From Phycisphaerae bacterium (GTDB lineage: Bacteria; Planctomycetota; Phycisphaerae; JAJVII01), in contig JAJVII010000020.1 of NCBI GenBank assembly GCA_022072085.1, forward strand, positions 1-64,000: a DNA stretch of 64,000 bases, written 5' to 3'. A program made the translations under genes and the position numbers. This document shows positions 18,981-64,000 of this stretch, piece by piece; positions within the stretch are counted from its first letter, which is position 1, and every line of letters starts with the position of its first letter. The notes beneath the pieces were generated by a model that was given only the letters and a program-made list of their open reading frames with translations, was not told the DNA's origin and searched no databases.

Positions 18981-19152
18981 TCGCGGCTACTGAATCCTGT
19001 AGAAGCAATCTTCACCACAGAGAACACAGAGAGCACAGAGTCGGGAGTATCAAGAAATTCTTGATTTCAGGCATTTCTTGACGCTTCTGACCTCCTCTGT
19101 GATCTCGGTGTCCTCTGTGGTGAATAGAGATTTCTCTTGCAGGTCTCAATAA
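18981..19152 (+). repeat. 172-bp CACAGAG palindromic repeat, copy 1
   Basis: This block recurs at 57117-57288 in the same orientation with only 3 mismatches in 172 bases. Its arms TTCACCACAGAGAACAC and GTGTCCTCTGTGGTGAA pair with one mismatch. A central palindrome ATCAAGAA-A-TTCTTGAT lies between. It fills most of the 354-base gap between the MOSC and esterase genes and is much richer in AT than the genes. It carries no coding signal. Confidence 0.9.
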
Positions 19153-19230
19153 GCGTCTAGCGAGCGCGTCCGTTGCGTCTGGAGTCGAGCGGTTCCGGAT
19201 TCAACTTCAAGCTCGCAACCGGTGGGCCGG

Positions 19231-22600: not shown

Positions 22601-22858
22601 GAAGAAGGCATCCGCAGATTACGCCGATTACGCAGATTTTATTGAAGAGGAGAAGAGCGAACCGCGAATCGACGCGAATGGGAAGTCAGGAGTTAGAAGT
22701 CAGAATTCAGAAGTCCGAATTCTCACTCCTTCCCATTCGAGTCCATTCGCGTGAATTCGCGGTTCCCCGATCTTCTCTTCTTAAGAATCTGCGTAATCGG
22801 CGTAATCTGCGGATGAGTTCTCTTCTCCGTGTCTCCTCAGTGAATCTCTCTTGCTCGG
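22601..22858 (+). repeat. Nested palindromic mosaic repeat, copy A (before purH)
   Basis: The gap between the propeller lipoprotein and purH is filled by concentric inverted repeats. The outer arms, 22610-22638 and 22786-22814, are perfect 29-bp complements built of the word ATCCGCAGATTACGC. The next layer is GAAGAGGAGAAGA against TCTTCTCTTC. The inner arms, 22659-22684 and 22730-22765, use CGCGAATGG and AATTCGCGGTTC. The core has repeated words such as AGAAGTCAGAATTC. The right edge runs almost into the purH ribosome site. Confidence 0.92.
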
Positions 22859-24575: not shown

Positions 24576-24872
24576 AGGGGCATCCGCAGATTACGCCGAT
24601 TACGCAGATTTCAGGAAAGAGAAGAGGCGAATTGCGAACCGCGAATGGACGCGAATCGACGCGAATGGGAAATCAGAATTCAGGAGTCGGAAGTCAGGAA
24701 TCAGAAGTCAGAATTCGGAACTCTCTCTTCTCCATTCGAGTCCATTCGCGTGAATTCTCGGTTCCCTTCTTTCCTCTTTCCGTCTCCTCGCACAAATCTG
24801 TGTAATCTGCGTAATCTGCGGATGATTTCCCCTCCCTTTTCTTCTCTGTGCCTCCGTGTCTCTGTGGTTAAT
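24576..24872 (+). repeat. Nested palindromic mosaic repeat, copy B (between purH and NUDIX gene)
   Basis: This has the same plan as copy A. The outer arms 24582-24611 and 24794-24823 match at 28 of 30 positions. The inner arms lie at about 24636-24669 and 24731-24764, with three CGCGAAT units on the left. The core repeats AAGTCAG/AATTC words. Outside the right outer arm, 24840-24870 is a CTCTGTG half-element of the same word family as the 172-bp repeats at 19.0 and 57.2 kb. Confidence 0.92.
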
Positions 24873-25890: not shown

Positions 25891-26179
25891 TCACCACAGA
25901 GACGCAGAGGCACAGAGAAGAGACGACAGGAGAGAGCATCCGCAGATTGCGCAGATTGCGCAGATTTGTGGGAGGAGGAGAAGAGAGGAAGGGAAGGAAC
26001 CGCGAATTCACGCGAATGGACTCGAATGGGAGAGAGCGATTTCTGATTCTTGATTTCAGATTTGGGATTCCCCATTCGCGTCGATTCGCGTTCATTCGCG
26101 GTTCTCTGGTCTTCTCTTCTTGCCAATCTGCGAAATCTGCGGATGAGTCCTCTTCTCCGCGTCTCCGCGGCGAGTCTTT
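25891..26179 (+). repeat. Nested palindromic mosaic repeat, copy C (before radA)
   Basis: The third concentric repeat. Outside lies TCACCACAGAGACGCAGAGG (25891-25910), the CACAGAG module. Then come 25938-25966 (ATCCGCAGATTGCGC) against 26125-26144, GAACCGCGAATTC (25997-26030) against 26070-26104, and a core with TTGATTTCAGATTTGGGATT. Individual words have diverged from copies A and B, but the order of layers is the same. The right edge runs into the radA ribosome site. Confidence 0.9.
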
Positions 26180-26189
26180 GGGAGCAGTC

Positions 26190-27659
26190 ATGGCCAAGCG
26201 CCGGCGACAGTTCATCTGCCAGCAGTGCGGGGCGGTCCATTCGACGTGGATGGGCAAGTGCCCGGACTGCGGGCAGTGGGATTCGCTCGTCGAGCAGGCC
26301 GTCGTCGCCGACGATCCGCATCGGCCCGAGGCCCTGGCCGGCATCGGCGCCTACGGCTCGCTGCCGGGCGAGGGGCTGACGGCCGCCGACGCGTCGTTCG
26401 GATCGGGCGAGCCGTCGGCGCTGCCGGCCATCACGCCCGCGTCCGAGCCTGTGCCCATCACCGACCAGCTCGACGTGCAGGTTCGCCGGTTGGCCAGCGG
26501 CGTCGGCGAGTTCGACCGCATCCTCGGCGGCGGTGTCGTGCCGGGCTCGGCGGTCCTGCTGGGCGGCGACCCGGGCATCGGCAAGAGCACGCTGCTGCTC
26601 CAGGCCGCCGATCGGCTGGCCGTTGCCGGCCACGACGTGCTCTACGTCACCAGCGAGGAGTCGGTGCGGCAGACGCAGATCCGCGCACGGCGGCTGGGCA
26701 TCGCCAGCCCGGCGCTCAAGGTGCTTGCGGCCACCAACCTGGACCTGATCGCCAGCCAACTCGTCAAACTCCGCCCGGCAGCCGTCGTCATCGACTCGAT
26801 CCAGATGGTTTACAAGCCGTCGCTGCCGGCGGCGCCGGGGACGGTGTCGCAGCTCCGCCAGTGCGGGCTGGAACTGGTCTACCTGGCCAAGGCCACCGGC
26901 TGTGCGGTCGTCTTTGTCGGCCACGTCACCAAGGCCGGAACCATCGCCGGCCCGCGGCTGCTGGAGCACATCGTCGACACGGTGCTCTACTTCGAGGGCG
27001 ACCGGCACCAGACCTATCGCATGATCCGTGCCGTCAAGAACCGCTACGGCTCGACCAACGAGATCGGCCTGTTCCGCATGACCGACGGCGGGCTGGAGGA
27101 AGTGACCAACCCCAGCGAGCTGTTTCTCGCGGACGCGGCCGACCGCTCGGCCGGCGGCGTGGTGACGGCCGCCGTCGAGGGCAGCCGCGTGATCCTCGTC
27201 GAGGTGCAGGCGCTGACGACGACGGCTGGCTTCGGCGCCCCCAAACGCAAGGTCAGCGGCGCCGACGCGTCGCGCGTCGCGATGATCATCGCCGTGCTGG
27301 AGAAGCGGGCCGGCCTGCACCTGGCGGACCAGGACGTGTTCGTCAACATCGTCGGCGGAGTCAAGGTTGTCGAGCCGTCGGCCGACCTGGCGATCGCGCT
27401 GGCGATCGGCGGGGCCTACGCCGAGCGGGTCGCCCCGCCGCGCTGCATCGCCCTGGGCGAGGTCGGCCTGGGCGGCGAACTGCGCAGCGTCGGGCAGTTC
27501 GACCTGCGGCTGGCAGAAGCCGAGAAGCTCGGTTTCGCCCACGCGATCCTGCCGACCCGCAGCGCCGATGCCGCCAAGCACAGCAAACTGACGCTGCACC
27601 CCTGCAAGCGACTGGACCAGGCCCTGGAGTGTCTGGACAGACCCGGTCCCGGGCAGTGA
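26190..27659 (+). CDS. radA: DNA repair protein RadA
   Basis: A 489-residue RecA-like helicase that helps branch migration in recombinational repair. The N-terminal zinc finger has CQQC (10-13) and CPDC (24-27). Walker A is GGDPGIGKSTLL near residue 124. The RadA-specific motif is KNRYGSTNEIG. The C-terminal third is the Lon-protease-like domain. The ATG at 26190 follows GGGAG. The last 27 codons are duplicated at 28324-28413. There is a gap of 58 bases to the next gene. Confidence 0.97.
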   Translation: MAKRRRQFICQQCGAVHSTWMGKCPDCGQWDSLVEQAVVADDPHRPEALAGIGAYGSLPGEGLTAADASFGSGEPSALPAITPASEPVPITDQLDVQVRRLASGVGEFDRILGGGVVPGSAVLLGGDPGIGKSTLLLQAADRLAVAGHDVLYVTSEESVRQTQIRARRLGIASPALKVLAATNLDLIASQLVKLRPAAVVIDSIQMVYKPSLPAAPGTVSQLRQCGLELVYLAKATGCAVVFVGHVTKAGTIAGPRLLEHIVDTVLYFEGDRHQTYRMIRAVKNRYGSTNEIGLFRMTDGGLEEVTNPSELFLADAADRSAGGVVTAAVEGSRVILVEVQALTTTAGFGAPKRKVSGADASRVAMIIAVLEKRAGLHLADQDVFVNIVGGVKVVEPSADLAIALAIGGAYAERVAPPRCIALGEVGLGGELRSVGQFDLRLAEAEKLGFAHAILPTRSADAAKHSKLTLHPCKRLDQALECLDRPGPGQ

Positions 27660-27717
27660 ACACGAAAAGGGAAGAAGCGACGACGGACCATTTCGACTCG
27701 CAATCAGGAGATGCACC

Positions 27718-28194
27718 ATGACCACGCCCGAATCTACCCCGCAGCCCCAACCCGCAGCAGATGCCGACGCCGCCCGAGCCGGGCGCGGACGCCTCTGGCT
27801 CCTGGTCGGCGGCGGGGCGGTCATTGCGGCCGCCGTCGTCCTGCTGATCTGGTCGCCCTGGTCGGGCCCGGAGGTCCCGGGCCGCCTGGCCCATGCCGTC
27901 GACCTGGTGACCGGCGAACTGACGCCGGAAGACCCGGAGCGGGACCTCATGCTCCTGGTGGAACTGGACCGCGACGTCAAGATGGAAGACACCTGCGTGA
28001 TGGCCGACAAGCTGCGATGCGAGTGTCGCAATGCGGTCATGACCATCGGGTCGGCCAAGGAGGGCGTCACGAAGACGCGGCTGATCTTCGCGGTCCCCAA
28101 GTCGCACGGCAATCTCGTGCTTCACGTGCCCGACGGCAGGCCGATGAGGGTGAAGGTGGAGGGCAAGGTCGCTGACCGCCTGCGCGGGTATTGA
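27718..28194 (+). CDS. Membrane-anchored protein of unknown function
   Basis: A 158-residue protein with an Ala/Pro-rich N-terminus, one transmembrane helix (about residues 26-45, LLVGGGAVIAAAVVLLIW) and an extracytoplasmic domain of about 110 residues. The domain contains two close cysteines (RCEC). I do not recognise the family. GGAG precedes the ATG. The gene sits between radA and a diverged copy of radA's end, so it may have been brought in by a duplication event. Confidence 0.65.
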   Translation: MTTPESTPQPQPAADADAARAGRGRLWLLVGGGAVIAAAVVLLIWSPWSGPEVPGRLAHAVDLVTGELTPEDPERDLMLLVELDRDVKMEDTCVMADKLRCECRNAVMTIGSAKEGVTKTRLIFAVPKSHGNLVLHVPDGRPMRVKVEGKVADRLRGY

Positions 28195-28227
28195 TGCCCG
28201 TCTGCCCGGGCAGGGGCCGATGCCGGC

Positions 28228-28320
28228 CACAGAATGCGTTTGGCCGGGGGCCAAGGGGTCTGGCAGGCGATCGGCCGGGTTGCCCCTATCCATCATCTCC
28301 GGCACCCCCCGACCCGGCCG
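28228..28320 (+). repeat. Direct repeat, copy 1, downstream side of PEP-CTERM gene
   Basis: A 50-base block (28228-28277) starting CACAGAATGCGTTTGGCC is identical to 30052-30101. Weaker matches continue through TGCCCCTATCC and GACCCGGCCG to about 28320. It contains the hairpin TTGGCC-GGG-GGCCAA. With its twin it brackets the PEP-CTERM gene at 28492-29673. It has no coding signal. Confidence 0.88.
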
Positions 28321-28323
28321 GCG

Positions 28324-28413
28324 ATGGCGCGAGAGCACAGCAAGTTGACGTTGCACCCCTGCAAGCGACTGGACCAGGCCCTGGAGTGCCTGGACAGGCC
28401 CGGCTCACAGTGA
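28324..28413 (+). pseudogene. Duplicated 3' tail of radA
   Basis: An open frame of 29 codons from the ATG at 28324 reads as the C-terminus of RadA (HSKLTLHPCKRLDQALECLD, then RPGSQ), against RPGPGQ in the intact gene at 27577-27659. The first residues (MAREHSK) are diverged from ADAAKHSK. Synonymous differences dominate, so the copy is not brand new. It lacks any ribosome site and is too short to function. It is evidence of a past local duplication or recombination. Confidence 0.85.
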
Positions 28414-28430
28414 CACGCCCGAAGCGAAAA

Positions 28431-28454
28431 GGCCCCGGTCGTCCGACCGGGGCC
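28431..28454 (-). terminator. Terminator of PEP-CTERM gene
   Basis: GGCCCCGGTC (28431-28440) pairs with GACCGGGGCC (28445-28454) over GTCC. On the minus strand it is followed by TTTTCGC. It lies 37 bases after the stop of the PEP-CTERM gene. Confidence 0.8.
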
Positions 28455-28491
28455 CTTGAGTTGGAACAGGACTGTTGCGACTGACCGGTTC

Positions 28492-29673
28492 TCAGCGCCC
28501 GGTCTGCCGGCGCCGGCGGTGCGCGCCCAACAGGCCCAGGCCGCCCAGAGCCAGGAGGCCCAGAGTGGCCGGCTCGGGCACGGGGGTCGTGAAGATGAAG
28601 ACATTGTGCCCGGCGCTGACGTAAACCACAGATGCGTCGTCGTTGACGGCCAGGCCGTTGGCAGCAACGTCGACGCTATTGGCGCTGTCACGAAGCAGGC
28701 CCGTCAGGTTGAGATACAGGTTCGTGCTGTCCGGATCCAGGTCGATCTGCGTCCAGTCGTTGGTCGACACATCGTTGATCGTAACGGCCGACAGGTAGGC
28801 GCTGGTCCCGCTGCCGGTCAGAATGAACAGCTTGCTCTGGTCGGCCGTGGCGGCCAGTGCAATGGCGGTGTCGCTGGCGGAGGGGACCAGTCCCTGGATC
28901 TGGACGGTACTCAGGAAGTTGGAGTTGGTGTTGGTGACCGCCGATCGCGTTCCAATGGTCGTGGCGCCCGGGGCTGTGGTGTAGGTGGCCGACGTGGTGA
29001 TCTTGCGCACCACGTTGCTGGAGCCGGTGTTGTTGATAGTCAGGAACGTGTAGTTTCCGCCGACTGTTCCGACATAGGCCAGCCCCGCGTGGAATTGTCC
29101 GGTGGTCAGCGACCCGACGCTGAGCAGTTGAGCCGACTGCACCGGGCTGCCGGTGGTCCCGTCGGTCAGGACGTCAGCGCCGGTCTGGGAGATCGCCGCG
29201 TTGAACTCGACGATGGGCGCCGTGTTGCCGTTGCCGGCCTTGCCGAACATGGCCACGCCGGGCACGTAGGCGAAACCGCCGTAGCCCCAGTTGCTGACGA
29301 TTGTGTCCTTGGTATTGCCGGTCACACTGCCGGCGTAGAAATCGGTCACGTTGGGAGTCGATACGTAATGGCGAAGGCGGCCGGTGTAGGAGTTGACCCC
29401 GGCGTTGCCCAGGTCGCCCATCACCGACACGTCGATCAGGAATATCTGCGGTGTCGAACCCGGGCCCCCCCAATACCAGTCAAGGTGATCGGTGCTGAAG
29501 TTGTAGCCGATCTGCCCGGGCGTCCCGCCCGAGGTGGAGGGCGTCCGCAGCACCTGGGCCACGCCGCCGACCTCCAGCCGCTGGTAGAGCGGGGCGGCTG
29601 ACGCCGTCGAGACGCCGATCAGATTGAATAGCGCGACCGTTGCGGCCGCGACTGCCAACGAGCGAATTGTCAT
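28492..29673 (-). CDS. PEP-CTERM protein, possibly beta-propeller
   Basis: A 393-residue exported protein. AAGGAG lies six bases before the ATG at 29673, which opens a signal peptide (MTIRSLAVAAATVALFNLIG, cleavage near ASA). The C-terminus has VPEPATLGLLALGG and an RRRR cluster, the PEP-CTERM tail. The body is rich in Ser, Thr and Gly beta-strands with repeating units such as LNLTGLLRDSANSVDVAANG and AVNDDASVVYVSAGHNVFIF, suggesting a propeller. Its function is unknown. It is followed by a good terminator and bracketed by a direct repeat. Confidence 0.85.
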   Translation of the reverse strand: MTIRSLAVAAATVALFNLIGVSTASAAPLYQRLEVGGVAQVLRTPSTSGGTPGQIGYNFSTDHLDWYWGGPGSTPQIFLIDVSVMGDLGNAGVNSYTGRLRHYVSTPNVTDFYAGSVTGNTKDTIVSNWGYGGFAYVPGVAMFGKAGNGNTAPIVEFNAAISQTGADVLTDGTTGSPVQSAQLLSVGSLTTGQFHAGLAYVGTVGGNYTFLTINNTGSSNVVRKITTSATYTTAPGATTIGTRSAVTNTNSNFLSTVQIQGLVPSASDTAIALAATADQSKLFILTGSGTSAYLSAVTINDVSTNDWTQIDLDPDSTNLYLNLTGLLRDSANSVDVAANGLAVNDDASVVYVSAGHNVFIFTTPVPEPATLGLLALGGLGLLGAHRRRRQTGR

Positions 29674-30338
29674 GCTGGACTCCTTCAAGCTGGTCCGGGC
29701 GAACTGGCGCCTTCAAACACGCGGACTCTCCCCTTCACTCTTCCGCTCCAGAAAGAGTAGCAAACGGCGTACCACATCAGGCGCCGAGGATAGGGGGAGT
29801 GGTGCGAAATCTGCAAGTGCTGAATTTGCATTTAGTTATGCTTTCAGGCTAGATGGAAAAATTAAGAGGGCCAATTGTTTCCGTCGCTGATCTTGTTGCA
29901 TTTTCGCAACATCTCTTAGCGCAATGTTCATTCCTGGCAACATGGCCTGCTGCCTCTGTCCACCCGTCGAGTGCCCTTGTCCGGGCCCGAGTGAACCGCC
30001 TTGCGCCCCCACCTCCGGGCGGGCTTCCCCGGCCATGGGGCCGACCCCCCTCACAGAATGCGTTTGGCCGGGGGCCAAGGGGTCTGGCAGGCGATCGGCC
30101 GACCTGCCCCTATCCGGCTACCCCCTGACCCGGCCGCGTGCGGCCAATCGCGTTGGCCGACCTCGGCTGCCGCGGATGCAGGGAGTTACAGGCCAATACA
30201 GACTGGTATGCAGTTGCGAGGGGCGGGGCGGGGCAATAGAGTGAACGGCTGGCCGGCCGCCGTCGGCGGATTTCATTTCCATCAGCAAGGGGTGGCCGGC
30301 GGCGGCGCGGCGACGGGACCGTCGGCTCCTGTATCGGC
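29674..30338. other. 665-base intergenic region between divergent genes
   Basis: About 29730-29940 is AT-rich and probably holds the minus-strand promoter of the PEP-CTERM gene, though no clear boxes were found. A small hairpin TGTTGC/GCAACA lies at 29894-29911. The direct repeat occupies 30052-30139. The last 180 bases are GC-rich and carry no recognised signal for the histidine kinase gene. Confidence 0.6.
30052..30139 (+). repeat. Direct repeat, copy 2, upstream side of PEP-CTERM gene
   Basis: The first 50 bases are identical to 28228-28277. The similarity continues with small changes to about 30139 (TGCCCCTATCC, then TGACCCGGCCG). Both copies have the same orientation, 1.8 kb apart. Confidence 0.88.
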
Positions 30339-57116: not shown

Positions 57117-57288
57117 TCGCGGCTACTGAATCCTGTAGAAGCAATCTTCACCACAGAGAACACAGAGAGCACAGAGTCGGGAGTATCAAGAAATTCTTGA
57201 TTTCAGGCATTTCTGGACGCTTCTGACCTCCTCTGTGATCTCGGTGTCCTCTGTGGTGAATAAAGATTTCTTTTGCAGGTCTCAATAA
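57117..57288 (+). repeat. 172-bp CACAGAG palindromic repeat, copy 2
   Basis: It matches 18981-19152 at 169 of 172 positions, same orientation and length. It includes the arms TTCACCACAGAGAACAC and GTGTCCTCTGTGGTGAA and the central ATCAAGAA-A-TTCTTGAT palindrome. The sequence before it differs between copies except for the last bases TCGCGGCTAC. It lies between the phosphoketolase and phosphoribosyltransferase-like genes. Confidence 0.92.
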
Positions 57289-57332
57289 ACGAGCTTCTTG
57301 GTCGGACCGTTCACGCGACTTGCTGGACTGCT

Positions 57333-63504: not shown

Positions 63505-64000
63505 TCAACGCCCCTGCCGGCGGCGACGCGTGCCGCGAGCCAGCAGGCCCATGCCGCCCAGTCCGAGCAGCAGCATCGTGGCCGGCTCGGGCGCCGCGGC
63601 GAACTGGCTGTTGTGATCCAGGACCGCCCAGATGACGTTGTTGACGGTGTCCACGCCCCACGCGCCGAGGTCCATCGGCTGGCCGGCGTCGTCCCAGCTT
63701 CCCTGGTAGTTCTGCACGCCGACGTTCGTGCCGTTGTTGCCCAGGACGGCGTTCTCCCACATGGCGACGCCCTCGCCGCCGCCGTTGGGATTGAGCCAGT
63801 TGAGGTGAATACATCCGTTGGCGGCCTCGACCGCTTCGTCGAAGATCGCCCCGCCGTAGTCGTCATAGGACATCTGGAGCACGAAGACGTCGCCGGCGCC
63901 GACGCCCGAAATCTCCACGACATCGGTGCACAGTCCGAAGACGCCCTGGGAGATGAGCAGCGGGGGCTCGGTGGGCGAACCGCCCTCGGCGGTGAAGGTC
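63505..64000 (-). CDS. PEP-CTERM protein, C-terminal part (cut by window edge)
   Basis: The frame is open to base 64000, so the gene starts beyond the window; 164 codons and the stop are visible. The C-terminus has APEPATMLLLGLGGMG, then an RRRR cluster, the PEP-CTERM anchor. The visible body (LQMSYDDYGGAIFDEAVEAA, LNWLNPNGGGEGVAMWENAV) resembles the end of a secreted beta-rich domain seen in planctomycete PEP-CTERM proteins. An internal GTG at 63918 is not the start, since the frame continues before it. Confidence 0.85.
   Translation of the reverse strand, partial: TFTAEGGSPTEPPLLISQGVFGLCTDVVEISGVGAGDVFVLQMSYDDYGGAIFDEAVEAANGCIHLNWLNPNGGGEGVAMWENAVLGNNGTNVGVQNYQGSWDDAGQPMDLGAWGVDTVNNVIWAVLDHNSQFAAAPEPATMLLLGLGGMGLLARGTRRRRQGR

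Follow-up and report, generated by a model that had tools for sequence, protein, structure and literature searches.

The stretch of DNA analysed here (the window, 64,000 nucleotides of a Phycisphaerae bacterium) carries a complete radA/sms gene, encoding the DNA repair protein RadA, at 26190-27659 on the forward strand. Its 489-aa product matched the NCBIfam model TIGR00416 with an E value of 4e-163 and scored 543 bits against a cut-off of 403, which identified it as a RadA equivalog. Approximately 80-105 terminal bases of this gene were found to be duplicated in the same direction, with the second copy lying after a small orphan gene, named M here. The functional 3′ end of radA (copy A, 27552-27659, forward strand) is separated from M (27718-28194, forward strand) by a 58-base spacer with no notable structure; after M come a truncated copy of a dispersed repeat (28214-28320, forward strand) and copy B of the radA tail (28334-28413, forward strand), which runs in frame to a TGA.

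An earlier note on this DNA had placed a membrane-protein gene between the two tails, and M was confirmed at that position as an ORF of 158 aa whose ATG is closely preceded by an AGGAG. A single membrane helix is predicted at the N-terminus of the protein, and its outer part is probably beta-rich; in a single-sequence AF2 model, which was of low confidence (pLDDT 50), the helix spanned residues 27-44. No family for M was found in Pfam or NCBIfam. When homologues were sought in 397 genomes of the class and 392 of the phylum, only weak matches around the N-terminal membrane segment were obtained, and no match was found in phages, plasmids or viral contigs. Across all of these searches M was confined to this genome. 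Three cysteines of the protein lie close together (TCVMADKLRCEC).

The repeat search aligned 27577-27646 with 28334-28403 at 93% identity over 70 nt, which bears out the recurrence of the radA end at 28334-28413, in the same direction, that the earlier note had reported. Within the 64-kb window, blastn extended the match to 27552-27646 against 28309-28403 (87.5%, E 4e-25), and a gapped alignment of A and B reached an ACACG just beyond both stops, the similarity fading a few bases past the stop of copy A. In the whole 5.49-Mb genome, copy A was the sole other match of the B tail. A degraded full second radA was rejected as the source of B, since only the last ~105 bases of the gene have a second genomic copy. 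Copy A encodes HSKLTLHPCKRLDQALECLDRPGPGQ and copy B encodes HSKLTLHPCKRLDQALECLDRPGSQ, each followed by a stop, so that B does read in frame to its end as had been claimed. A translated mini-ORF starting within this region (ATG at 28324, 29 aa) was also considered and rejected, having no convincing ribosome-binding site; copy B has no evident function.

The differences between the two copies are unevenly spread. In the 69-nt coding core there are six substitutions, all of them transitions and all synonymous; the changes had been described beforehand as mainly synonymous, which even understates the case for the core, and the 25 bases upstream are strongly altered. After the core, A has CCCGGG where B has TCA, which amounts to a net in-frame indel of 3 bases just ahead of the stop of B. 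A 37-base identical core lies within the tail, and the differences cluster at both tail ends, weakly (p about 0.04). Had B been dead ever since it arose, a synonymous share of 0.41-0.57 would be expected, depending on the transition bias, and the observed 6/6 gives p of about 0.005-0.04, values calculated post hoc on six substitutions.

The direction of these changes was examined with G001, the closest and only same-family genome found (of a different genus, with a RadA 80% identical). Three third positions could be polarised with it (AAA/AAG, TGT/TGC and AGA/AGG), and at each of them B matches G001 and A does not. GC3 was 0.82 for tail A, 0.89 for tail B and 0.93 for the remaining radA, and tail A carries AGA and TGT codons, which are rare among its neighbours. 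On the synonymous-only core, the G001 polarity and the GC3 and codon usage, a small sample read post hoc, the sequence of B resembles a radA end that was functional until recently, not a decaying copy, and that of A resembles the end of another allele. The degradation, relative to A, of the 25 bases that form the left edge of B is odd in this respect and counts against a recently functional B. Mosaicism of radA was also sought with a sliding comparison against G001, but at 80% protein identity this comparison had no power.

The dispersed repeat, absent from the earlier note, directly adjoins the duplicated tail. It is about 145 bases long and is present in about 13 genomic copies, with CAG-rich GGCCAATACAG units at its end, and a degenerate GGGGTCGGACCCC-like palindrome often precedes the copies. 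The copy at 28214-28320, with its conserved core starting at 28228 (CACAGAATGCGTTTGGCC), retains the 5′ part only; a full-length copy with no gene tail attached lies at 30037-30180 on the forward strand. Full copies run from CCCCCTGACCCGGCCG into GCGGCCAATCGCGTTGGCC, and in the truncated copy CCCCCCGACCCGGCCG is followed by the radA tail. The 3′ half is kept in most of the 13 copies, and only at 28214-28320 is a gene tail found in its place; one further copy (C35:52345, locus L134) is also truncated, but the sequence that follows it is unrelated. A duplicated gene tail straddling the repeat was found at none of the 12 other copies (0/12), where other direct repeats were one-sided, and on this count the idea that the repeat serves to capture gene tails was rejected. 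The repeat was also rejected as a structured RNA, with no credible Rfam match and folding no better than that of its shuffles. The repeat was absent from G001 and the other class genomes scanned, and was found in this genome alone among 298 of the class. Separately, the genome contains three matches to Y1 (IS200/RAYT-type) transposases.

The junction zone between the repeat and copy B (28309-28333, forward strand) consists of CCGACCCG followed by ~17 bases of degraded radA similarity. The 8 bases of CCGACCCG are read both in radA (27552-27559) and at 28309-28316, and full repeat copies read a nearly matching TGACCCGG at the same position; the join therefore sits where the repeat and radA share ~8 bases of microhomology. 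Copy B begins exactly at the cut-off point of the repeat. The bases after CCGACCCG are still radA-like (GGCGATGGCGCGAGAGCACAGC against GCCGATGCCGCCA-AGCACAGC, with three mismatches and one indel), and the whole 25-base stretch before the core (28309-28333) differs from A by indels of +1, -2 and +1 or else by many substitutions. For an illegitimate junction a match of 3-10 bases was looked for, and one of 8 bases was found, at 27552 and 28309. A junction that falls inside an interrupted dispersed repeat, with 8 bases of microhomology, is characteristic of illegitimate joining.

The two tails also stand in different 3′ contexts, A being followed by the short spacer and M, and B by a hairpin and a convergent gene. 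The hairpin (28431-28454, forward strand) is strong and G+C-rich, with 10 bp and no T-run; the stretch 28414-28475 folds at -29.8 kcal/mol (z -2.8). It is probably a terminator between convergent genes; a terminator scan based on T-runs returned none. The convergent gene (28492-29688, reverse strand) encodes a PEP-CTERM-anchored protein (Pfam PF07589, TIGR02595). Neither a second M nor the other half of the repeat is present after B, the similarity ending a few bases beyond the stop. As a side observation, 28492-28579 and 63505-63592 are coding sequence for PEP-CTERM tails, and similar stretches occur at dozens of genomic places, which probably indicates a large set of PEP-CTERM proteins in this organism.

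The earlier note had offered a tandem duplication or an insertion that regenerated the end of the gene as the simplest history; the geometry fits both, and neither is proved. An in-genome tandem duplication, the main rival to recombination between two radA alleles, would have doubled a unit of ~757 bases (radA tail, M and the 5′ half of the repeat) via CCGACCCG, or a template switch would have copied the ~105-base tail, and the rest of the second unit would then have been deleted or have decayed. Such an event requires no second allele, and a repeat-to-radA junction at an 8-base match, in direct orientation with the upstream sequence, is exactly the junction that a microhomology-based tandem duplication or template switch is expected to leave. 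At radA, however, no second unit continues past the tail, the hairpin and the PEP-CTERM gene standing there instead, so that an additional deletion event would be needed to remove the second M and repeat half. Furthermore, a core divergence that is entirely synonymous is unexpected for a dead duplicate, as is the finding that B is at least as G001-like as A. We regard a tandem duplication as a serious but tentative alternative.

Related genomes and other radA loci were compared as well. G001 has neither M, nor B, nor the repeat; about 50 bases after its radA lies a convergent dehydrogenase-like gene, but the radA surroundings of the two genomes are unrelated on both sides, with no synteny. In the downstream sequence (up to 6 kb) of 76 other radA loci no comparable tail copy was found; this tail scan gave a single match, of 26 bases (L091), and recovered its positive control. 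The relatives searched included no genome of the same genus, and no genome with either of the supposed parental radA alleles was found.

Some integrative elements insert in the 3′ ends of genes and restore the gene. An element of this kind might have entered radA at its 3′ end, brought a replacement tail and displaced the old one, with its integrase lost later and M left behind. The radA 3′ end does occur as a direct repeat at both borders, with the gene end restored in frame and a displaced tail on the far side, and the differences at both tail ends around the 37-base identical core are what an attachment core would give, weak as their clustering is; the distal changes of A are moreover rare codons within an otherwise GC3-rich radA. 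On the other hand, M is the only gene between the tails and no recombinase accompanies it, and none of the nine tyrosine-recombinase matches of the genome lies on the 208-kb contig that carries radA (C2), which shows no match to a phage integrase family. Such a radA tail is absent from phage records, as M is from phages, plasmids and viral contigs, and the right end of the insert is a truncated repeat of the host itself. Unlike the known elements, the insert at radA has no integrase, measures only ~0.75 kb and has no second example in the 76 loci. A search of open-access papers, with matches judged by title, found none naming radA as an integration site. The integrating-element option is thus left weak, and we consider it unlikely. 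In a narrower version, M and the half repeat would together form a non-autonomous cassette of minimal size, inserted with a replacement tail into the radA 3′ end by a recombinase acting in trans from elsewhere in the genome; this version appears highly improbable.

The junction could in principle also have arisen in the assembly, if a strain-mixed assembly had spliced two variants of the radA locus at the dispersed repeat. The assembly comprises 72 contigs, with an estimated contamination of 1.68%, its nearest relatives are metagenome-assembled, and the join falls within a multicopy repeat. Only 8 bases, however, are common at the join, far under the usual overlaps of assemblers, and a repeat joined to a mid-radA tail is expected in no intact strain, so that a simple repeat-collapse error does not produce it. 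An artefact of this sort seems quite improbable to us.

The explanation that we prefer, at roughly even confidence, is that B is a one-off recombination scar, left by illegitimate joining between two radA alleles. The resident allele of the ancestor would have been a radA that ended at B, with the hairpin and then the convergent PEP-CTERM gene directly after it, and a second, slightly diverged allele would have been followed by M and then by the dispersed repeat. DNA of the second allele would have been taken up, or unequally paired, and would have undergone homologous recombination inside radA; its far end, lying in mid-repeat, would have been joined illegitimately at CCGACCCG to the resident radA, ~105 bases before the stop. 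The product would be a radA with the donor tail A, then M, half a repeat and the orphaned tail B of the resident with its old hairpin.

A single event of allele recombination would explain the main features, namely the repeat cut at an 8-base match, the differing 3′ contexts, the 6/6 synonymous changes, and the G001 polarity and GC3. What the DNA shows directly is the duplicated tail, the repeat cut short, the microhomology, the purely synonymous divergence of the core and the differing contexts; the existence of two alleles and the sequence of steps are our inference. The six synonymous changes and the polarity at three sites, a small sample from one genome, favour the origin of the insert from a donor allele. 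Recombination in which homology anchors one side and the other is completed at matches of 3-10 bases is known as homology-facilitated illegitimate recombination and has been described for Acinetobacter, Pseudomonas stutzeri and Streptococcus pneumoniae (PMC6382021). The radA locus resembles it in that one side is consistent with homologous pairing inside the gene and the other is closed at an 8-base match, and in that foreign sequence and a remnant of the resident gene end are left; it differs from those examples in being reconstructed from a single genome. If the allele mixing took place, the locus would preserve a clear record of a gene gain, to which the former end of radA still testifies: an orphan gene would have entered the transcription unit of a housekeeping gene. 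This would be a modest but specific example of how small orphan genes come to lie behind conserved ones. The scar itself belongs to ordinary genome dynamics and leaves the known mechanisms unchanged.

Other repeats were observed in the window. A 175-base repeat occurs at 18981-19155 and 57117-57291, the two copies being 98% identical and weakly matching their own reverse complement; it has 81 matches in the genome, about 20 of which are full-length copies at 95-99%, and it appears to be a palindromic MITE-like element that has spread recently. Finally, the intergenic regions between purH, nudix, pduO and radA (22607-22842, 24579-24870 and 25893-26177) were found to contain sequences that resemble one another, partly in inverted orientation, with GCGAATTCGCG and CGCAGATT motifs.
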